A stretch of DNA of 44,049 nucleotides from Halothiobacillus sp. GTDB taxonomy: Bacteria; Pseudomonadota; Gammaproteobacteria; JAAZVP01. The translations under genes and the position numbers were made by a program. Of this stretch, positions 3,145-18,386 are shown in pieces; the stretch's first letter is position 1, and the number at the start of each line of letters is the position of its first letter. The notes below the pieces were generated by a model. The model had not been told where the DNA came from, made no database searches, and saw nothing but the letters and a program-made list of their open reading frames with translations. The stretch is taken from NCBI GenBank assembly GCA_018623495.1, contig JAAZVP010000019.1, forward strand, positions 1 to 44,049, read 5' to 3'.

Positions 3145-3891
3145 GTGCGAATGGTGATCTTGGCGGTTGCGTGGTTCCTCGGTGGCGGTTCCCTCGAGGT
3201 CGCGGTTGGAGCGAAACCACCCGCCCGTCTTCCCGGCGTGTATGCCGGCGTGCTGCCCTGCGCGGACTGTCCCGGTATTCGCCATCGCCTGCAGCTGTTC
3301 GGCGATGGCGTGTTCTTTTTCGATCTCGCCTACCTGGATCGCCCAGATGGGCCCTTCGATGATCTCGGCCGCTGGCACCGCGAGGGCGACGTGCTGGTGC
3401 TCGAGGGCGGGCGCGATGCGCCGGAGCGCTGGCGGGTTACGACGTCCGGGCGGCTGCGGGTGCTGGACACCGCCGGGCGCGAGATCGAGTCCGCGCTGCC
3501 GCGGGTGCTGCAACGCCGCCCGGGCGTGACGGTGGAACCGTGGCTCTTCCTGCGCGGGCAGTACCGCTATTTCGCCGATGCCGGGCGGTTCCGCGAGTGT
3601 CGCACGGGGCGGGTCTGGCCGGTGGCGCAGGTGGCGGACAACGCGGCGCTGGAGCGGGCCTATCTCGGTGCCGGGGTGGAGCCCGGGGCGCCGGTGGCGG
3701 TGCGCGTGGAGGGTCGGGTGGTGATGCGCCCCGGCATGGACGGTACCGGGCCGCGGGAGACGCTGGTGGTGGAACGCTTCATCCGCCGGGAACCCGGCAG
3801 CGGTTGCCCGGCGGGGCCGGGGGCCAGGGACTCGGCAACCCGGTCGAGCGGGCGGCCAGGCGAGCCGGTGCAGGCCGGCCCGGGGCGCTGA
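3145..3891 (+). CDS. NlpE N-terminal-domain protein without a lipobox
   Basis: This 248-residue protein starts with a hydrophobic signal (about residues 4-22, ending AVGA). It is followed by GVYAGVLPCADCPGI, the hallmark of the NlpE copper-homeostasis/envelope-stress domain with its CxxC pair (C39, C42). NlpE is normally an outer-membrane lipoprotein; here no cysteine follows the signal, so the protein is predicted to be soluble in the periplasm. The second half contains RECRTGRVWPVA and is less clear, and the last ~30 residues look disordered. The GTG at 3145 is taken as start because GGGG at 3134-3137 sits about 7 nt upstream; ATG 3151 is the alternative. Its stop codon abuts that of the convergent GGDEF-EAL gene (TGATCA). 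Confidence 0.7.
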   Translation: MRMVILAVAWFLGGGSLEVAVGAKPPARLPGVYAGVLPCADCPGIRHRLQLFGDGVFFFDLAYLDRPDGPFDDLGRWHREGDVLVLEGGRDAPERWRVTTSGRLRVLDTAGREIESALPRVLQRRPGVTVEPWLFLRGQYRYFADAGRFRECRTGRVWPVAQVADNAALERAYLGAGVEPGAPVAVRVEGRVVMRPGMDGTGPRETLVVERFIRREPGSGCPAGPGARDSATRSSGRPGEPVQAGPGR

Positions 3892-6735
3892 TCAGGGGCC
3901 GGGCACCGGCCCGAGGCGTTCGCGGAGGAAGGCGGTGCAAGCCTCGGCGTCCATGGGCCGGCCGTAGTGGAAGCCCTGGGCGAAGTCGCAGCGGTTCTCG
4001 CGCAGAAAGGCCTCCTGCTCCGGCGTTTCCACGCCTTCGGCGACGATGCGCACGCCGAGGTTGTGGCCCATGGTGATGATGGCGCGGGTGATGGCGGCGT
4101 CGTCCTGGTCCTCGGTGATGTCGCCGACGAAGGTCTTGTCCACCTTGAGGGTGTTGATGGGGAAGCGCTTGAGGTAGGCGAGCGAGGAGTAGCCGGTGCC
4201 GAAGTCGTCGATGGAGATGCGCAGGCCCATCTCCTGGAAGTGCATGAGCGTGGCGATGGTGTGGTCGAGCTCGTCCATCAGCAGGCTCTCGGTGATCTCC
4301 AGTTCCAGCAGGCCGGCATCCAGTCCGCTCCGGTCGAGGGTGTTGCGTACCAGTGCCAGCAGTTCCGGGTCGCGGAACTGGCGCGGCGAGAGGTTGACCG
4401 CCGTGCGCAGCGGCGGCAGTCCCTCGGCCTGCCAGCGACGGGCCTGCTCGCAGGCCATCTCCAGCACGCGCGCGCCGATGGCGACGATCAGGCCGCTTTC
4501 CTCGGCCACGGGGATGAACTTGGAGGGAGGGACCAGGCCGTTGCCGGGGCTCTGCCAGCGCAGCAGGGCCTCCACGCCGATGATCCGCCCGCTGTCGAGG
4601 TCGATCTGCGGCTGGTAGAAGAGGGCCAGCTCGTCGTTTTCCAGGGCGTGGCGCAGTCCTTGTTCGAGCGCCATGTGTTCCTGGACCCGGGTGTCGAGTT
4701 CCGCGGTGAAGAAGCGGTAGGTGTCGCGGTCCTGGTTCTTGGCCCGGTACATGGCGGAATCGGCGTTCTTGAGCAGCTGGTCGGCGGTGTGCGCATCGGC
4801 CGGGTAGACGCTGATGCCCACCGAGGTGGAGGTGAACAGTTCGAAGCCGTCGATGATGAACGGGTCGCGGAAGCTCTTGATGATCTTGCGTGCCACCAGC
4901 GCGATCTCGTCCTCCCCGGCCATCTGCGGCAGAAGGATGGCGAACTCGTCGCCGCCGAGGCGGGCGAAGGTGTCCTCCTCGCGCAGCAGCTTGCGGATGC
5001 GTTTCGCCACCGCCTGGAGCAGGGCGTCGCCCACCTGGTGGCCCTTGGTGTCGTTGATCAGCTTGAAACGATCGAGGTCGAGGAACAGCAGCGCCAGCCA
5101 GTGGCCGTGGCGCTCGGCCTGGCGCAGGCCCTGTTCCAGGCGATCCTGGAACAGTTGGCGGTTGGGCAGGTCGGTGAGTTCGTCGAAGTAGGCCAGGCGG
5201 TGGATGCGGCTCTCGGCTTCGCGCAGGCGGGTGAGGTCGCTGAAGACGCCGGTGAAGTGCGTCAGCCGGCCCTCGGCATCCTCGACCGTGCCCAGGTTGA
5301 GCCATACCGGCAGCGGCCGACCGTCGCTCGGCCACAGCCAGGCCTCGCCCTCGTGGCGACCCTCTTCGGCCGCGACGGCCAGCAGCCGGTCGAGGACCCG
5401 GCGTTCGCCCCCCGTGTCCACGCGCAGGCTGCCGAGATGGCGGCCGACGAGGGTGGCCTCGCCGGTGAGCCGGGCGAACGCGGGGTTGACCCGGACGATC
5501 CGGCCGGTGGGGTCGGTGACCACCAGGCCGTCGGAGGTGGACTCGAAGACGCGCGCCGTGAGCCGCAGGGCCTCTTCGTGCCGGAGGCGGTCGCTGATGT
5601 CCTTGGCCACGTAGACCAGGTTCTCGGCGCCGTCGCGATCGTCCATGGTGGAGGCGGAAATCGCCACGGGGATCCGTTTCCCGTCACGATGGAGCAGGTG
5701 GCAGTGGAGCCGGGCATCCTGCCGGTCCCGGGGGGTCTCGACCAGGTTCCGCAGGCCGCATTCCTCGCCGTCCAGGAGGGTCTCGATGGGGCGATCGAGC
5801 AGGGTCTCGCGGCGGTAGCCGAGCATCGTGCAGGCGGCGTCGTTGACCATGCGGATCATGCCGCCGGGGGAACAGACGATCAGGGCGTCGTTCATGCTGG
5901 CGATGATGCGGTCGAGATAGTCGCTTGAGATCGTGGTCCGGCGCAGGTCGCCCTCCATCCGGGCGAAGTTCTCGGCCAGCTCGCCGAGCTCGTCGTGGCG
6001 CCGGATGTCGAGTGGGCCCATGGGCTCGCCGGCGCCCACCCGGGTGGCCGCCCGGGCCAGCCGGTGGATGGGGCGCACCATGCCGCGTGCGACCAGCGCG
6101 GCCAGCAGTGCGGCGACCAGCAGCAGGCCGCCGGTGATGGCGCCGATGGCCCGCATCTGTTCCCGGAAATGGCGCTCGCCGATGGTCTCGATGCGCCTCT
6201 CGAGCCCGGCGATCTCTTCCTCCAGTGGCGCCAGCGAGAACCCGATGCGCACCCCGCCGAGCCGCTGGTCGCCGAGGTGGATGGGCACGGTGACGTCCAG
6301 GACCTCCTCGCCCCGCTGGACCACGGCCGAATCGGCACCGAGCGCCTTCCGGGCCAGCGGGTCGTCCATCCGGCGGCCGAAGCGCGGGATGTTCTCGATG
6401 CCGTCGTGGACGATGCGTCCCTGGTCGTCGAACAGGTAGGTGTAGACCACCTGTTCCTGGTCGCGGACGTTCTCGAGCAGGCGCTGGATGGTCTCGAGGT
6501 CGTAGCGGTAGAGGGGGTTGACGAGGTTGCCGGCCAGCAGGCGGGTGATCTTGAGGCCGTCGCGGCGCAGCTGCGCGTGCATGGACTCGGCCAGGGTCTC
6601 GGCGCTGGCGGTGGAGGCGTTTTCCATCGCCACGCGGAAGTTGTTGAGCAGGGTGGCGGCGAGTACCAGCACCACGCCGAAGATCAGGCCGGTGAAGATC
6701 AGCGTGTAGCGCGCCTGCAGGCCGTGGCGACTCAT
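3892..6735 (-). CDS. Membrane sensor bifunctional diguanylate cyclase/phosphodiesterase (HAMP-PAS-PAS-GGDEF-EAL)
   Basis: This 947-residue inner-membrane protein is predicted to make and/or break cyclic di-GMP. Two membrane helices (about 12-31 and 197-218) bracket a periplasmic sensor domain. A HAMP linker follows (about 217-270), then PAS domains near 271-385 and 391-505, a GGDEF domain (about 510-675) and an EAL domain (about 690-945). GGDEF is intact (594-598), with the inhibitory RxxD site REED (585-588) at the expected distance. EAL (722-724), ITES, DDFGTGYS, KVDKTF and AEGVET are all present, so both activities look possible. Its ATG overlaps the stop of the PhnD-like gene by 4 nt, suggesting translational coupling. 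The periplasmic partner is inferred to be that binding protein. Confidence 0.93.
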   Translation of the reverse strand: MSRHGLQARYTLIFTGLIFGVVLVLAATLLNNFRVAMENASTASAETLAESMHAQLRRDGLKITRLLAGNLVNPLYRYDLETIQRLLENVRDQEQVVYTYLFDDQGRIVHDGIENIPRFGRRMDDPLARKALGADSAVVQRGEEVLDVTVPIHLGDQRLGGVRIGFSLAPLEEEIAGLERRIETIGERHFREQMRAIGAITGGLLLVAALLAALVARGMVRPIHRLARAATRVGAGEPMGPLDIRRHDELGELAENFARMEGDLRRTTISSDYLDRIIASMNDALIVCSPGGMIRMVNDAACTMLGYRRETLLDRPIETLLDGEECGLRNLVETPRDRQDARLHCHLLHRDGKRIPVAISASTMDDRDGAENLVYVAKDISDRLRHEEALRLTARVFESTSDGLVVTDPTGRIVRVNPAFARLTGEATLVGRHLGSLRVDTGGERRVLDRLLAVAAEEGRHEGEAWLWPSDGRPLPVWLNLGTVEDAEGRLTHFTGVFSDLTRLREAESRIHRLAYFDELTDLPNRQLFQDRLEQGLRQAERHGHWLALLFLDLDRFKLINDTKGHQVGDALLQAVAKRIRKLLREEDTFARLGGDEFAILLPQMAGEDEIALVARKIIKSFRDPFIIDGFELFTSTSVGISVYPADAHTADQLLKNADSAMYRAKNQDRDTYRFFTAELDTRVQEHMALEQGLRHALENDELALFYQPQIDLDSGRIIGVEALLRWQSPGNGLVPPSKFIPVAEESGLIVAIGARVLEMACEQARRWQAEGLPPLRTAVNLSPRQFRDPELLALVRNTLDRSGLDAGLLELEITESLLMDELDHTIATLMHFQEMGLRISIDDFGTGYSSLAYLKRFPINTLKVDKTFVGDITEDQDDAAITRAIITMGHNLGVRIVAEGVETPEQEAFLRENRCDFAQGFHYGRPMDAEACTAFLRERLGPVPGP

Positions 6736-7661
6736 CGCGGCTCGCCTTCCCGGTCCTTCAGGCGCCGGAGCAGGCCCTCCACCTCGCGGATCCGGGCGCG
6801 GCTCTCGGCGTCGATGCGGTCGAAGCGCGCGGTCTCCTGGTAGGCATGCAGGGCCTTGCGTCCGGCCGGGTCTTCGTGGGCGGCGAGCAGGATGTCCACC
6901 AGCCGTTCGCGGACGGCCGGATCGAGGTCGCCGCGTACCGACTCCAGGGCCCGGGGCAGCGGTTCGCTGGAATGAAAGATCCGCAGGTCGCGGCGGAAGG
7001 CGCGCGGCGTGTGATCCGGGTTTTCCCAGTCGAGGTCGTTGTAGGCGCCGGCGTCGGCCAGGCCCTTGTACACCCAGGCGGCGATGTTGATCTCCTCGGC
7101 GGCGAACACGTAGCCCGCTTTGCCGGCCGGGATCTCGGCCCGTGTTCCTTCCAGCGCCACCGGCTCGATGCCGGCATCCAGGAGCAGGGCGAGGGGCAGG
7201 AAGAAGGCGGTGCTGGAGCCGGGGTCCTCCAGGGCCAGGCGGTGTCCGGCGAGATCGGCCAGGGCGTGGATGTCGCTGTCCTTGCGGGTGATGAAGACCG
7301 TGCGGTAGTCCGGCACGCCCTTCTTCCACTTGCGCAGGAGGATTTCCGAGCCGGCCCGGTCCCGGTAGAGGAGCGAGGAGAAGACCGTCTCGGTGACCCA
7401 GTCCACGCGGCCCTCGCGCAGGTAGCGCACCATCTGCTCGTTGTCGCGCGCCATCCGCACTTCGCCCCGGGTGATGCCGAGATCGCCCATGCGTTCGACG
7501 GCGTAGTCCACCATCGGCTTGAGCCGGCGGTAGTGCTTGCGCGGGTCGTCGCTGACCTTGCCGATCACCAGCGTGTCGTCGGCACCGGCGGGGACGGTGC
7601 CGGCCAGCAGCAGCGCGCCGAGCAGCAGGCCGAGAAGCCGGGGGAAGTCCCGTGAGGGCAT
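6732..7661 (-). CDS. PhnD-like periplasmic phosphate/phosphonate-type substrate-binding protein
   Basis: This 309-residue protein has a Sec signal (about residues 1-27, cleaved near PAGA-DD). The body matches PhnD-type periplasmic binding proteins: VIGKVSDDPRKHYRRLKPMV at the start, then VRYLREGRVDWVTETVFSS, FITRKDSDIHALADLAG, and LALEDPGSSTAFFLP (the ligand-loop region, usually DPxSTSG). No ABC permease or ATPase accompanies it. Instead it sits 13 nt after an OprO/P-like porin and overlaps a GGDEF-EAL receptor by 4 nt. This suggests a sensing subunit that reports an oxyanion to the receptor rather than a transporter part. The ligand (phosphate, phosphonate, phosphite or other) cannot be told from sequence alone. 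Confidence 0.85.
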   Translation of the reverse strand: MPSRDFPRLLGLLLGALLLAGTVPAGADDTLVIGKVSDDPRKHYRRLKPMVDYAVERMGDLGITRGEVRMARDNEQMVRYLREGRVDWVTETVFSSLLYRDRAGSEILLRKWKKGVPDYRTVFITRKDSDIHALADLAGHRLALEDPGSSTAFFLPLALLLDAGIEPVALEGTRAEIPAGKAGYVFAAEEINIAAWVYKGLADAGAYNDLDWENPDHTPRAFRRDLRIFHSSEPLPRALESVRGDLDPAVRERLVDILLAAHEDPAGRKALHAYQETARFDRIDAESRARIREVEGLLRRLKDREGEPR

Positions 7662-7674
7662 CGCGGGCGCTCCG

Positions 7675-8877
7675 TCAGAAGTCGAACTGGGCGCGCAGCT
7701 GGAGGATGCTCGGGTCCTCGGCCGCGCCCGGCTCGGCGACGTCGCCTTCCTCCACCTCGGTGGGGTCGGCGTCCACGAGCACGTAGTTGAGCATGAAGCG
7801 CAGCCGGGGATTGGCGTACCAGTTCACGCCCAGGGTGGTGTTGCGCTGCTCGCCGCCCTCGACGCCGGCATCCTGGAGGTCGATGTGGCTGTGACGCAGG
7901 GCGATCTCCCAGGCACCCGAGGGCATGGCCGGGCGGATGCGTTCGAACTCGCCGTCGTCGGCGTCGTAGTCGCGGGACTCGCCGGTCAGGAACCAGCTGG
8001 CGAAGGCGTAGTAGCCGGAGAAGGTCGGGTCGGTGTCGCCGTCGCCGTCGCGGTCGACGGCGGCGCGGATGTATTCGCCCTGCAGCGAGAAGGGGCCGCG
8101 GACCCAGGCCGCCTCCAGGCCGCTGCGGGTGATGCGGTCGACGTCGTCGAGCTTGTCGGTGTTGACCAGGCGGAGGTCGGCGACGTGCGCCTCCGGGCGG
8201 GCGCGAAAGCGTACGGTCTCGTCGTCGCCGGGGTTGCGCAGGTTGATCGCCGCGCCCAGGTGCAGGGCCTCGCCACCGTCGGCCCAGGGGGCCCAGGTGG
8301 CCCGCAGGCCCGCGCCGGTGCCGGCATCGCCGGTCTCGCCGCTGTCGTCGTCGATTTCCTCGGAGAACACGCCCGCCGCCAGGGTCCAGTTCTCGGCCTC
8401 GCGGAAATAGCCCAGGCCCAGTCGCCGACCGGGCACCAGGGCATTGGGCAGGGCCCGCTCCATGAAGGTGGTGTACTTGGAGCTGGTCATCTCCTCGAGA
8501 CTGAAGGGTTCCTTGAAGTGCCCCACCCGGAGCGCGCTGGTGGAATCGAGGTGATAGTCCAGCCAGGCGTCCTTGAGGTCGGCCTCGTCGTCGGCGAAGT
8601 CGGTCTCCAGCTGGTATGCCCAGTCGTGGAACAGCACGCCGTGCAGATCCAGGCGCGCCCGGCGGATTTCCGCCCCGCTGTGCAGGTCGGTGAGGTCGTC
8701 GTCGAAATGGGCGTAGTCCACCATCAGGCGCCCGCCCAGCTCGAAGCTGAAGGCGCCGTCCATGGTGGCCACTTCCAGGCCGCCTTCGGTCTTCACCAGC
8801 GGAGCGTCGGCCGCCCAGGTCGCGTTGAGGCCCAGTAGCGCCAGCGTCCCGGCGGCGAGCGTGGAAAGGCGTGGCAT
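7675..8877 (-). CDS. Phosphate-selective (OprO/OprP-type) porin
   Basis: This is a 400-residue outer-membrane beta-barrel. It has a signal peptide (about residues 1-22, ending ATWA) and ends in Phe (LRAQFDF), the usual signal for barrel assembly. Features of the OprO/P family include GRLMVDYAHFDD, RRARLDLHGVLF, YQLETDFADDEADLKDAWLDY and FKEPFSLEEMTSSKYTTFMER (shown here in short pieces). Start ATG 8877 is chosen for its ribosome site (GAGGGGA, 6 nt upstream) and the signal peptide. The frame stays open upstream to 8961 but crosses the promoter. It is the first gene of an operon with the PhnD-like protein and the GGDEF-EAL receptor, pointing to uptake and sensing of an anion. Confidence 0.86.
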   Translation of the reverse strand: MPRLSTLAAGTLALLGLNATWAADAPLVKTEGGLEVATMDGAFSFELGGRLMVDYAHFDDDLTDLHSGAEIRRARLDLHGVLFHDWAYQLETDFADDEADLKDAWLDYHLDSTSALRVGHFKEPFSLEEMTSSKYTTFMERALPNALVPGRRLGLGYFREAENWTLAAGVFSEEIDDDSGETGDAGTGAGLRATWAPWADGGEALHLGAAINLRNPGDDETVRFRARPEAHVADLRLVNTDKLDDVDRITRSGLEAAWVRGPFSLQGEYIRAAVDRDGDGDTDPTFSGYYAFASWFLTGESRDYDADDGEFERIRPAMPSGAWEIALRHSHIDLQDAGVEGGEQRNTTLGVNWYANPRLRFMLNYVLVDADPTEVEEGDVAEPGAAEDPSILQLRAQFDF

Positions 8878-8932
8878 GTCGGTCCCCTCGGGTTTGTTGT
8901 TCGTTCTTGGCGGGTCCCTGCCTCGGGCGGAT

Positions 8933-8961
8933 ACTCTAATGCCTGTTAACCCCGTTGTCAC
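8933..8961 (-). promoter_or_regulatory. Sigma-70-type promoter of the porin/PhnD/GGDEF-EAL operon
   Basis: Read on the minus strand, -35 GTGACA (8961-8956) and -10 TAGAGT (8938-8933) are separated by exactly 17 nt, 56 nt before the porin start codon. The -35 lies in an imperfect inverted repeat, CTGTTAAC...GTTGTCACAG (8943-8963 on the plus strand), which may be an operator. It does not match a Pho box with correct 11-nt spacing. Confidence 0.5.
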
Positions 8962-9048
8962 AGGGGTTGGGCGGGATCGCCGCGGGCGGGTGGCCGATGG
9001 CGCGGCGAAACTGGTCTAATGAGATCGTGTGCCCACCGGGGAGTGACC

Positions 9049-9957
9049 ATGGCCGACATCGCCGAACTCGACCACCTGCATGCCATCGCCGATCACCTGC
9101 GGTTCGTCGAGGGACCGGGGGGACTCCCCGTGGCCGAACTGCGCACACCCGCGGCCAGCGCCCGGGTGAGTCTCCAGGGCGGGCAGGTGCTCGACTACCG
9201 CGTGGGCGACGGCGAGCCGGTTCTCTGGACCAGCCCCGGCGCGGTCTTCGAACCCGGCCGACCCGTTCGCGGCGGGGTCCCGCTGTGCTGGCCGTGGTTC
9301 GGCGCCGACCCGGCGGGTCGCGGAGCCAACCACGGTTTCGCCCGGACCCGCCCGTGGCGGGTGATCGAGGCGGCGCGCCTGATGGACGGCCGCGGGGTAT
9401 GCCTGTGCCTCGGGCTGGCGGACGATGCCGAGACCCGCGAACTCTGGCCGCAGACGTTCGACGTCCAGGCCTGGATCACCCTCGACCGAAGGCTCACGGT
9501 GGAGCTGCTCACGCTGGCCACCGATCCCCTGCCGACGACCCTCTCCGCCGCCCTGCATGCCTATTTCCGCGTGGGGGACGTCGGCCGCGTGAGCGTCGAG
9601 GGCCTCGACGGCAGCGAGTTCCTGGACAAGAACGCCGGCCTGGCCGAGGCCCGGCAGTCGGGTGCCCTGCGGGTGGAAGGGGCCATGGACCGCATCTACA
9701 CCGCCCCCGGCCAGCGCGTCACCCTCGAGGACCCGGTCCTCGGTCGGCGCATCGGCATCGAGCGCCTGGGGGGCGACAGCCTGGTGGCCTGGAATCCCGG
9801 TGCCGAGGGTGTCGCGAAAATCGGTGACATGCCGGCAGGGGCCGAGCGCGAGATGCTCTGCCTGGAGCCGGCACTGGGCGCGGTCGAGCCGGTCACGCTC
9901 GCTCCGGGCGAGGAGGCCCGCTTCGGCATGGTGATCTCCTCCGAGTCCGCCGAGTGA
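9049..9957 (+). CDS. D-hexose-6-phosphate mutarotase (aldose 1-epimerase family, YeaD-like)
   Basis: This 302-residue cytoplasmic enzyme of the galactose mutarotase-like beta-sandwich family is predicted to interconvert alpha and beta anomers of hexose 6-phosphates. Typical YeaD stretches are present: SLQGGQVLDYR, RGGVPLCWPWFG, NHGFARTRPW (catalytic His region), LSAALHAYFRVGD and GLDGSEFLDK, with WNPGAEGVAKIGDM near the end (catalytic-Glu region usually follows). ATG 9049 is preferred over the in-frame 9019 because GGGGAG sits 6-7 nt before it. The stop codon overlaps the GTG of the iron/heme permease gene (GTGA), so the two are probably translated together, an unusual pairing. Confidence 0.88.
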   Translation: MADIAELDHLHAIADHLRFVEGPGGLPVAELRTPAASARVSLQGGQVLDYRVGDGEPVLWTSPGAVFEPGRPVRGGVPLCWPWFGADPAGRGANHGFARTRPWRVIEAARLMDGRGVCLCLGLADDAETRELWPQTFDVQAWITLDRRLTVELLTLATDPLPTTLSAALHAYFRVGDVGRVSVEGLDGSEFLDKNAGLAEARQSGALRVEGAMDRIYTAPGQRVTLEDPVLGRRIGIERLGGDSLVAWNPGAEGVAKIGDMPAGAEREMLCLEPALGAVEPVTLAPGEEARFGMVISSESAE

Positions 9958-11009
9958 GCCGGACGGGCGTGCCGGGCATCGGGCGCGGCCCGGCACTGGC
10001 CGTACTGGGCCTGCTGGTGGCCGGGGTGGCCTTGCTGGCCCTGGGCGTGGGGCCCCGGGCCATCGGTCCCGGCGAGGCCCTGGCCATCCTCGGTCACCGG
10101 TTGACGGGGCTGGGGCCGGACCCGGAGCCGTTGCGACAGGCGATCGTCCTGCAGCTGCGCCTGCCCCGGGTACTGCTCGCCGGGCTGGTGGGCGCGGCCC
10201 TGGCGCTTGCCGGGGCCGCCCTGCAGGGCTTGTTTCGCAATCCCCTGGCCGACCCGGGCCTGCTGGGCGTGTCCACCAGCGCGGCCCTGGCGGCGGTGGC
10301 GGCGATCGTCGTCCTCGATCGACTGCTTGGCGGTCTGCCCGCCGCGCTCGCTGCCTATGGCCTGCCGCTGGTGGCCTTCGCCGGTGCGCTGGTGGGCACG
10401 GCCCTGATCCATCGCCTGGGCACCCGCGAGGGTCGGGTGGACGTGCCGCTCATGCTGCTGCTGGGGATCGCCCTGAACGCGGTGGCCGGGGCCGGGATCG
10501 GGGTGCTGGCGTTCGTCGCCGAGGCGGGGGCGTTGCGTACCCTGACCCAGTGGGGCCTGGGCAGCTTCGCCGGCGCCGACTGGCCGGGGGTGACGGTGCT
10601 CGCGGCGGGCGTGCTGGTGGCGGGGCTCGTGCTGGCGCGCCTGGCCACGGCGCTCAATGTCTTTCTCCTGGGTGAGGCGGAGGCGGGCCACCTGGGCATG
10701 CCCGTGGAGGCGGTCAAGCGGCGGGTGGTCCTGCTCGCCTCGCTGGCCACCGGGCTGGCCGTGGCTTTCGCCGGAACCATCGGCTTCGTCGGCCTGGTGG
10801 TGCCGCACCTGGTCCGCCTCGCCCTGGGCCCCGACCACCGGCTGCTGGTGCCCGCCAGTGCCCTGGGCGGGGCCCTGCTGGCCATGCTCGCCGACCTGCT
10901 GGCCCGGGGCCTGGCGCCGCCGGCGGAGATCCCCGTGGGACTGATCACGGCGCTGCTGGGCGGGCCGCTGCTGTTCTGGCTGCTGCTGCGCGGCCGGGGG
11001 CGCTACTGA
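9954..11009 (+). CDS. hmuU: FecCD-family ABC permease, heme/iron type
   Basis: This 351-residue inner-membrane permease of the BtuC/FecCD/HmuU family is expected to dimerize and work with the ATPase encoded next. About ten hydrophobic helices are visible. Family signatures include LRLPRVLLAGLVGAALALAG, LQGLFRNPLADPGLLGVS (the classic permease motif), GTIGFVGLVVPHLVRL and the C-terminal EIPVGLITALLGGP. Start is GTG at 9954, overlapping the mutarotase stop. The 3' end overlaps the ATPase start by one base (TGATG). The substrate is inferred as heme because the ATPase is HmuV-like; siderophore or cobalamin transport is possible. No binding protein or TonB receptor is in the window. Confidence 0.85.
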   Translation: MSRTGVPGIGRGPALAVLGLLVAGVALLALGVGPRAIGPGEALAILGHRLTGLGPDPEPLRQAIVLQLRLPRVLLAGLVGAALALAGAALQGLFRNPLADPGLLGVSTSAALAAVAAIVVLDRLLGGLPAALAAYGLPLVAFAGALVGTALIHRLGTREGRVDVPLMLLLGIALNAVAGAGIGVLAFVAEAGALRTLTQWGLGSFAGADWPGVTVLAAGVLVAGLVLARLATALNVFLLGEAEAGHLGMPVEAVKRRVVLLASLATGLAVAFAGTIGFVGLVVPHLVRLALGPDHRLLVPASALGGALLAMLADLLARGLAPPAEIPVGLITALLGGPLLFWLLLRGRGRY

Positions 11010-11791
11010 TGGGCTGGCGGCTGGAGACCGTGGACGTGGAGCGAGACGGCCGGCGGGTGCTCGCCGGGGTGGATCTCGCGCTCGACCCGGGCGAGGTGGT
11101 GGCGCTGGTGGGGCCCAACGGGTCGGGCAAGTCCACGCTGCTGGAGGTGATGGCCGGGGGGCTGGCCCCGGCGGCCGGCAGGGTGGCCCTGCACGGGCGG
11201 TCCGTGGCGCGGTTCAGCGGGCTGGAGCTGGCGCGCCGGCGGGCGGTGCTGCCCCAGGACAGCCGGCTGGCGTTCGCCTTCCCCGTCCGCGAGGTGGTGG
11301 CCATGGGCCGCACGCCCTTCAACGGTGGCCGCGAGACCCGGGCCGATGCCGCGATCGTCGGCCAGGCACTGGAATGGATGGACCTCGACGGGCTGGCGAG
11401 GCGGCCCTATACCCATCTCTCCGGCGGCGAGCGCCAGCGGGTCCAGCTGGCCCGCGTGCTGGCCCAGGTGCTGGGCCCGGGGATGGAAGGTCGCTGGCTG
11501 CTGCTCGACGAGCCGCTGGCGGGGCTCGACATCCGCCATCAGCTGGCCCTCCTGGCGCGCCTGGAGTCCCTGGCCGGGGAGGGCATGGGCGTCATCCTGG
11601 CGTTGCACGACCTCGATCTCGCCGCCCGCCACGCCCGCCGGCTGGTGATGCTGGACGGTGGCCGGCCGGCGGCCGTGGGCGAGCCGCGCGCGGTGCTCAC
11701 GCGCGAACGGGTGCGCGCGGTCTTCGGCGTCGACCTGGCCGCGATCGAGGGGCCCGAGGGCCAGCCGGTCTTCCTTTGCCGGCAGGCGTAG
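11009..11791 (+). CDS. hmuV: Heme ABC transporter ATP-binding protein (HmuV-like)
   Basis: This 260-residue ATPase has Walker A GPNGSGKST (35-43), Q-loop LPQDS, signature LSGGE (137-141), Walker B WLLLDEP (163-169) and the switch His in LALHD. The REVVAMGRTPF segment, the insert before Walker B (LAQVLGPGMEGRW) and LDIRHQ are characteristic of HmuV rather than FecE or BtuD. It is directly coupled to the permease gene. After it comes a 133-nt gap carrying a Fur-type site that belongs to the next gene, so this operon itself shows no obvious Fur box at its own start. Confidence 0.85.
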   Translation: MGWRLETVDVERDGRRVLAGVDLALDPGEVVALVGPNGSGKSTLLEVMAGGLAPAAGRVALHGRSVARFSGLELARRRAVLPQDSRLAFAFPVREVVAMGRTPFNGGRETRADAAIVGQALEWMDLDGLARRPYTHLSGGERQRVQLARVLAQVLGPGMEGRWLLLDEPLAGLDIRHQLALLARLESLAGEGMGVILALHDLDLAARHARRLVMLDGGRPAAVGEPRAVLTRERVRAVFGVDLAAIEGPEGQPVFLCRQA

Positions 11792-16938: not shown

Positions 16939-18386
16939 GCAATCTGCAGGCGACGCTGCTTCTGATCTCGGTCGAGCTGGCCGTCGGCTTCGCCCTGATC
17001 CTGGGCATCGTCGGTTTCTTCTTTCTTCGCCAGCGCAGCCGGGATCGCGAGGCCCTCCGGCAACTGGTGGACGACGTCGCCGGCTCCTCCGAGAGCCGGC
17101 GGGAAGAGCTCGCCGAGCTGCTCAGAAACGAGCGCGGCGTGACCGAGTCCGCCGGGGAGACCGCCGGCTCGCTCGACGAACGCGAGCGGGACCTGATCCA
17201 GCGGTTCTTGAAGAGCTACTTCCAGCGCGACCGCGAGGCGGTCGCGGAACTCGGCCAGTTGCTGCGGGCGCATGGCGACGAGCTGCTCAAGGTGGGCGAG
17301 GCGCCGGCCGCCGAGGCCCCGCCGACCGACGAGGAGCTGCGCCAGAGAAACGAGCGCCTCGAAGGGGAGGTCGCGGAGCTGCGCAAGCAGGTGGCGGAAC
17401 TCAACGAGGAGCTCAAGGAGAGCGTCGACACCGTCAACACCCTGATCGAGCAATACGGGCAGGACGACGAGAACCCCACCTCGCCCAAGGCCGAGGAGGT
17501 GCTCGCCGCGATCAACGAGATCCGCAAGCGGCGGGATGGCGAAACCGACGATGAACCGGTCGAGGAGGATGACGAGGAGGTCGTGATCGACACCGGCGAG
17601 GAGGAGGCCGAGATGACGGCGGACCTCGAGGGCGGCCCCGAGCCCGAGCCGTCACCCGAGCCCGAGCCCGAATCGGAGCCCGAATCGGAGCCCGAATCGG
17701 AGCCCGAGCCTGAACCCGAACCGGAACCCGAACCGGAACCGGAACCGGAACCGGAACCCGAGCCGGAGCCCGAGCCGGAACCCGAGCCGGAACCCGAGCC
17801 GGAACCCGAGCCGGAACCCGAGCCGGAACCCGAGCCGGAGCCCGAACCGGAGCCCGAACCGGAACCCGAGCCCGAACCGGAGCCCGAACCGGAGCCCGAA
17901 CCGGAGCCCGAACCGGAGCCCGAGCCGGAGCCCGAGCCCGAGCCCGAGCCCGAGCCGGAACCCGAGACCGAGCCCGAGCCGTCGTCAGCGCGGGCGCCCG
18001 AACCGGGTGGCGCGGGGAGGCCCGGGAGCCAGGAGCCGTCCGGGGCGGGGCACGCCGCCCTGGAGTCCCAGATCGAGGCCCTGATCGACGAGCAGCAGGA
18101 CGAGCAGGACCCCGATCTCCAGGACGACTTCGACTTCGGGGAGCTGCTCGAGGAGGACGTCGCCCCCAGGGCCGAGCTCGGCGACGACGACCTCGACCTG
18201 GCCGTTCCCGACGATCGGCCCGAGAGCAAGGCCGAGGCGTCGGACTACGACGAGGACATGGCCCGCCTGCTCGAGCAGAGCGAGGCGGATGCCGGACCGC
18301 CTTCCGCGCCCGTCTCCGACGAGGAACTCGACCTCAGCGAAACCGGTGACCCGGACGAGACCGGGGGGTCGCAAGCCAGGCCCTGA
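16935..18386 (+). CDS. Inner-membrane protein with coiled coil and long Glu-Pro repeat
   Basis: This 483-residue protein has an N-terminal membrane helix (about 7-31) followed by basic RQRSRDR, so the rest is predicted to be cytoplasmic. Residues about 35-190 are helical with a coiled-coil stretch ([20 protein letters not shown]). Residues 235-349 (17637-17981) are almost pure Glu-Pro dipeptide, about 57 units with a few ES/SP/ET variants. The C-terminal ~130 residues are very acidic ([26 protein letters not shown]). It overlaps the VWA gene by 4 nt and probably forms a complex with it. Function unknown. The reverse-strand Ser-Gly frame over the repeat is an artefact. Confidence 0.8.
17637..17981 (+). 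repeat. In-frame hexanucleotide (Glu-Pro) microsatellite
   Basis: About 345 bp made of GAR-CCN hexamers (GAGCCC, GAACCG, GAGCCG and similar), encoding about 57 EP dipeptides. Because the unit is 6 nt, expansion or contraction keeps the frame. Local runs of identical 12- and 24-nt combinations suggest slippage or unequal exchange. Confidence 0.9.

Follow-up and report, generated by a model that had tools for sequence, protein, structure and literature searches.

Three adjacent genes in a 44,049-nucleotide stretch of Halothiobacillus sp. DNA (contig JAAZVP010000019.1; the whole stretch is referred to as the window) encode a porin, a PhnD-family periplasmic binding protein and a membrane receptor with GGDEF and EAL output domains. 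The trio is very probably a bipartite receptor of the kind formed by XAC2383 and XAC2382 in Xanthomonas citri, here equipped with a porin of its own, and would translate the sensing of a solute into a change in cyclic di-GMP (c-di-GMP). The binding-protein and receptor half is an already described type, and the attached porin is less explored. Gene content and genomic distribution strongly support a link of the binding protein to the periplasmic domain of the receptor and not to an ATP-binding cassette (ABC) transporter. The genes and their main features, all on the minus strand, are as follows.

3892-6735, minus strand: receptor gene, 947 amino acids, transmembrane helix (TM)-sCache-TM-HAMP-PAS-PAS-GGDEF-EAL
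6732-7661, minus strand: binding protein gene, 309 amino acids, signal peptide, PF12974; PhnD-family, XAC2383-type
7675-8877, minus strand: porin gene, 400 amino acids from ATG, heading the operon; Porin_O_P (OprP/OprO-family)
3955-4656, minus strand: EAL phosphodiesterase domain of the receptor (PF00563, E 1.7e-75)
4723-5193, minus strand: GGDEF domain of the receptor with RxxD inhibitory site (PF00990, E 1.4e-51)
6160-6624, minus strand: periplasmic sCache domain of the receptor, residues 38-192 (PF17203, E 6e-10)
7209-7217, minus strand: Ser-Ser-Thr 149-151 of the binding protein, counterpart of the PtxB/PhnD STS oxyanion-binding loop

The porin gene ends at 7675, a 13-nucleotide gap from the binding protein gene, which in turn shares 4 nucleotides (6732-6735) with the receptor gene; no ABC genes lie within the unit. 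An earlier sequence-only reading had described this layout, the domain content (an OprO/P-type porin, a PhnD-type binding protein and a HAMP-PAS-PAS-GGDEF-EAL receptor), the intact receptor motifs and the lack of an ABC permease or ATPase, and on all these points it was right: the flanking genes are on the opposite strand and the FecCD pair described below lies outside the unit.

Pairing of the binding protein with the receptor

The binding protein matches PF12974 (E 6.3e-44) and no other family, and its nearest solved relative is XAC2383 (entries 5UB3-5UB7, E 6e-72). In profile comparisons XAC2383 (E 1.6e-120) stands well ahead of HtxB, PtxB, ArrX and AioX, and a Foldseek comparison of a fused model with 5UB3 gave a TMt of 0.93. 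Against the TIGR03431 PhnD equivalog the protein scores 66 bits, far under the cut-off of 261.

Named genomes were scanned with a 9-sequence alignment as query and 80 loci were kept; the query consisted of peptides of this subfamily, and the scan is silent on other PhnD proteins. A receptor with a matching periplasmic region follows the binding protein directly in 79 of the 80 loci, the 80th being interrupted by a contig end, and the two genes overlap by 4 nucleotides in 51 of the 79. Separate searches of 369 genomes of the class found the binding protein and the sCache domain in exactly the same 8 genomes, where they are adjacent. Among 399 genomes of the phylum 25 have the binding protein and 22 the sCache domain, the 22 all falling within the 25. 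A binding protein gene adjoins 23 of 25 sCache places; at the exceptions (G536:C277 and G489:C219) the detected binding protein sits on a different contig. The three remaining binding-protein genomes comprise two with a more divergent adjacent receptor and one (G676) with an orphan.

Receptor outputs differ across the loci and include GGDEF-EAL, HisKA or HisKA_2 kinases with or without a receiver, and a hybrid kinase joined to GGDEF-EAL. At least four output changes are seen on the binding-protein tree, with the pairing to sCache retained throughout. A constant sCache partner with exchanged outputs is as expected if the binding protein and the sCache domain touch.

Transporter partners were sought at several levels. 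Within about 7 kb of related loci a seed search for ABC ATPases returned only opposite-strand ABC-F or exporter-like proteins, and no ABC family occurs among the 41 adjacent same-strand genes in the 25 of 47 families listed. In the Halothiobacillus genome itself, which is 99% complete, neither PhnC, PhnE nor any phosphonate transporter exceeds the curated cut-offs. The sequence-only reading had proposed that the binding protein serves as a sensor subunit of the receptor; co-occurrence, adjacency and output swapping uphold this in kind, and its genome neighbourhoods agree, with the pairing conserved in relatives and no ABC partner at related loci. The idea is not new, because the X. citri pair has been published.

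Two assemblies deserve comment. The sCache receptor at G536:C277 (L185) and the binding protein at G536:C370 (L186) each lack the usual neighbour, which could reflect either a genuine split of the pair or faulty binning. A contig labelled Bacillus subtilis (L080, JAHREJ010000037.1) carries a Stenotrophomonas-like pair and is probably part of a contaminated assembly.

The receptor

The receptor has transmembrane helices at residues 6-37 and 193-223 flanking a sCache_3_2 match (50-178), followed by HAMP (214-260), two PAS domains, GGDEF (515-671) and EAL (694-927). All catalytic motifs, among them RxxD-x5-GGDEF, EALLR and DDFGTGYSS, are preserved; with cyclase, inhibitory and phosphodiesterase sites all kept, the response could in principle either raise or lower c-di-GMP. 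An AlphaFold2 model of the periplasmic domain adopts a sCache fold (pLDDT 92), to which the nearest solved folds include WalK (the top match; entry 9a5d, with YycH) and CitA. The NPLY and HDG motifs of this domain are conserved across the family.

The ligand pocket

Roles of the STS loop and of pocket residues are known from PtxB and PhnD (PMC5700983). In the family of the window's binding protein the loop is invariant in character, with S149 in 85/85 sequences and T/S150 and S/T151 likewise in 85/85, and Y119, the counterpart of PtxB Y100, is tyrosine in 85/86. The histidine of the STS-H motif has been lost: position 189 is S, E or G and never H in 86 sequences, 3 of which have His one position earlier, at 188. 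Leaving XAC2383 aside, 85/85 family members have Glu or Asp at position 190. In XAC2383 the Y119 and E190 of the window protein correspond to F119 and K190, which makes the sole solved member atypical at two otherwise near-invariant positions, so that the window protein may prefer a different ligand from XAC2383. Its crystal structures contain chloride or ATP.

These pocket features suggest that the ligand is probably a small anion. An oxyanion had been proposed from the sequence; the anion-binding loop is kept and the pocket histidine lost, and a specific oxyanion is not supported. Phosphite or 2-aminoethylphosphonate specificity, as the PhnD family name might imply, was dropped in view of the equivalog score and this same loss.

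The porin

The porin matches PF07396 (E 3.8e-86) and the OprP structure 2O4V (E 2e-45), and ends in a C-terminal F. It is the only PF07396 gene of its genome, and such genes are present in 14/56 of the relatives sampled. Outside the Lysobacterales it stands directly upstream of the binding protein in 28 of 34 loci, while in two distant genomes (L191 and L192) the order is binding protein, kinase, porin, with the porin downstream of the receptor. Because linkage recurs upstream in 28/34 loci and at the opposite end of the operon in these two genomes, the porin looks functionally linked to the pair, and the second gene order favours function over inherited neighbourhood. A literature search for a trio of porin, binding protein and receptor found no relevant description of the porin link.

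The phosphate site of OprP comprises Y62, D94, K121, K126, R34 and R133 (PMC5877670), and at these positions the window porin reads R, K, E, K, R and R. R34, R59, K126 and R133 are retained, and in the operon porins R, K, K and E take the places of Y62, D94, Y114 and K121, so phosphate selectivity should not be assumed. For the same reason OprP-type phosphate specificity, suggested by the family name, was dropped, and a selective porin is not supported by these residues. Nor are the four eyelet substitutions special to linked porins, an idea that was also abandoned: unlinked porins of the family are nearly alike at 62, 114 and 121, and K94 alone is more consistent among the linked ones. An anion path through the pore is plausible. 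A connection with selenite and tellurite has been reported for ExtI, a further porin that carries a phosphate-selective annotation (PMC5877670).

Proposed mechanism

A small solute, probably anionic, would pass the Porin_O_P pore and be held between the lobes of the PhnD-family protein, which would close on its ligand. One conformation of the binding protein may then dock onto the sCache domain of the receptor, and the signal would travel by way of the second transmembrane helix and HAMP into PAS-PAS-GGDEF-EAL, changing how much c-di-GMP is made relative to how much is broken down, in the manner of NspS-MbaA. Physical docking, the direction of the response, the nature of the ligand and the permeability of the porin are the inferred elements of this scheme.

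Alternative explanations

Some observations weigh against the interpretation of the trio as a porin-equipped bipartite receptor. The binding protein of G676 (L181) has no receptor beside it, and the sCache domain might itself recognise a small molecule. The porin is absent from 6/34 non-Lysobacterales loci and from 46/46 Lysobacterales loci, and is therefore dispensable. For L044, a relative whose genes are in frame, binding protein and receptor were modelled as one chain across the stop codons from a 13-row paired alignment; the individual domains came out well, and the pTM of 0.64 is indecisive on docking. The absences of the porin are an argument for regarding the sensor pair as real and the porin as a passenger, that is, a general pore brought in by chance co-transcription or shared regulation and not a supplier of ligand; the missing OprP-specific phosphate-site residues point the same way. 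Direct upstream linkage across distant lineages, the independent gene order in L191 and L192, and the scarcity of the gene among relatives speak against it, and we regard a passenger porin as a rather unlikely but serious alternative. The converse and more ambitious claim, of a widespread porin-equipped cassette with interchangeable outputs, whose porin serves specifically to admit a ligand other than phosphate and of which XAC2383 would be an atypical member, is likewise doubtful and is offered tentatively.

It is less probable still that the sCache domain binds a small molecule directly, the binding protein only modulating a receptor that integrates two signals. The modelled domain does resemble CitA, DcuS and DctB, all direct binders of carboxylates, and its NPLY and HDG motifs are conserved family-wide; against this, sCache almost never occurs without the binding protein, which suggests dependence, and the WalK-type sCache that is the top fold match receives its input from partner proteins. 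Least credible, and in our judgement very improbable, is that the binding protein is an ordinary ABC subunit, for phosphonate or phosphite or for the nearby FecCD permease, and is next to the receptor incidentally. In its favour, relatives are annotated as phosphate, phosphite or phosphonate ABC transporter substrate-binding proteins, and the genes for the FecCD permease and ATPase, at a distance of about 1 kb, have no obvious binding protein beside them. The failure to find PhnC or PhnE over cut-off in a nearly complete genome, an import-type ATPase around related loci or an ABC family among the adjacent same-strand families listed argues against such a role, as do the low PhnD equivalog score and the strict pairing with the sCache receptor. 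FecCD permeases, moreover, work with binding proteins of a different fold class, and a partnership with these genes was dropped as no related ATPase was found at other loci. We retain the bipartite receptor with its own porin as the preferred explanation.

Comparison with known systems

The features of the XAC2383-XAC2382 type found here are the binding-protein subfamily, an adjacent sCache receptor specific to the pairing, and swapped outputs; both systems join a binding protein to a membrane receptor with c-di-GMP output. A relative in Xanthomonas sacchari (L009) has a pair with a 4-nucleotide overlap and GGDEF-EAL output, as does the window operon. The window operon differs from the X. citri pair in being headed by a Porin_O_P gene and in the two PAS domains of its receptor. 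Work by Teixeira in 2018 is said to have found that XAC2383 attaches to the cache domain of its partner XAC2382, which serves here as a lead and not as a test; ligand-bound XAC2383 was reportedly proposed to inhibit the cyclase, its ligands are said to be phosphate-containing anions, and homologues reportedly bear various output modules. PMC10380989 cites the X. citri pair as a published bipartite receptor with a diguanylate cyclase (2018, doi 10.1074/jbc.RA118.003475).

NspS-MbaA of Vibrio cholerae is a polyamine receptor made of a binding protein and a GGDEF-EAL receptor with overlapping genes, in which the ligand state of the binding protein sets the balance of cyclase and phosphodiesterase (PMC8967002). 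Its binding protein is of the polyamine type and unrelated, and there is no porin; the working is similar and the family separate. PtxB, HtxB and PhnD (phosphite, hypophosphite and phosphonate; PMC5700983), as well as the arsenic oxyanion-binding proteins AioX and ArrX, share the PF12974 fold and the Ser/Thr anion-binding loop. PtxB, HtxB and PhnD serve ABC transporters, whereas the family studied here lacks the STS-H histidine and has Glu/Asp at position 190, and compared with a PhnCDE/PtxABC-type importer the window unit is without cognate permease and ATPase as well as the STS-H motif. OprP and OprO, the phosphate and pyrophosphate porins of Pseudomonas aeruginosa, belong to the same family as the operon porin and share the four retained basic residues, differing at positions 62, 94, 114 and 121.

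Operon boundaries and other features

The following features lie around the operon.

8933-8961, minus strand: weak sigma-70-like promoter candidate (GTGACA-17-TAGAGT), by consensus match alone
3145-3891, plus strand: NlpE-like gene, bounding the operon on one side
9019-9957, plus strand: aldose-1-epimerase-like gene, bounding the operon on the other side
9954-11791, plus strand: FecCD permease and heme/B12-type ATPase pair, outside the operon

Opposite-strand genes bound the trio on both sides, which makes it a self-contained three-gene operon. Its extent had been given as 3892-8961; the receptor end at 3892 stands, and the porin start is most likely ATG 8877 (MPRLSTLAAG...), judging from the signal peptide behind it and the purine-rich ribosome-binding site ahead, 8961 being merely the over-extended start of the longest open reading frame. 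With this start the operon spans about 3892-8877. The promoter candidate upstream represents one match found against 0.3 expected. The FecCD/ATPase pair is downstream of the aldose-1-epimerase-like gene and has no obvious binding protein alongside.

Other PhnD-family proteins occur in the genome. At G000:C57 (L106:2234-5434, minus strand) a single chain of 1066 amino acids has the order PhnD-family domain-TM-PAS-PAS-GGDEF-EAL, with the strict GGDEF signature absent. A second fused PhnD c-di-GMP protein, at G000:C68 (L107:2555-5386, minus strand), joins a PhnD-family domain and TM to GAF, HD-GYP (motifs HDIGK and HHERQDGSGYP present) and a partial GGDEF. The end of G000:C76 (L109:474-3305 and 3302-3559, minus strand) carries a second, divergent split pair, likewise with a 4-nucleotide overlap, consisting of a sCache-HAMP-PAS-PAS-GGDEF-EAL receptor and a binding protein interrupted by the contig end. 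At G000:C67 (L108:4820-5566 and 6484-7218, minus strand) two PhnD-family proteins without evident signal peptide lie beside a PAS protein.

The window also contains two tandem repeats, a 111-base unit in 5.6 copies at the contig start (1-617) and a 12-base unit, CCCGAGCCCGAA, in about 29 copies at 17637-17980, within long open reading frames.

Significance

If the porin were a dedicated gate for the ligand, the more doubtful claim above, one cassette would hold a whole sensing path from the outer membrane to a second messenger. Few cases are known in which binding proteins feed c-di-GMP receptors rather than transporters, and annotation as a subunit of an ABC transporter is routine for such proteins, the relatives here included. 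As the porin-linked family spans many lineages, it supplies numerous pairs from which ligand and docking surface might be worked out by experiment or covariation, and the porin link would itself provide a handle on the ligand, since the same solute should cross the pore and fit the pocket.

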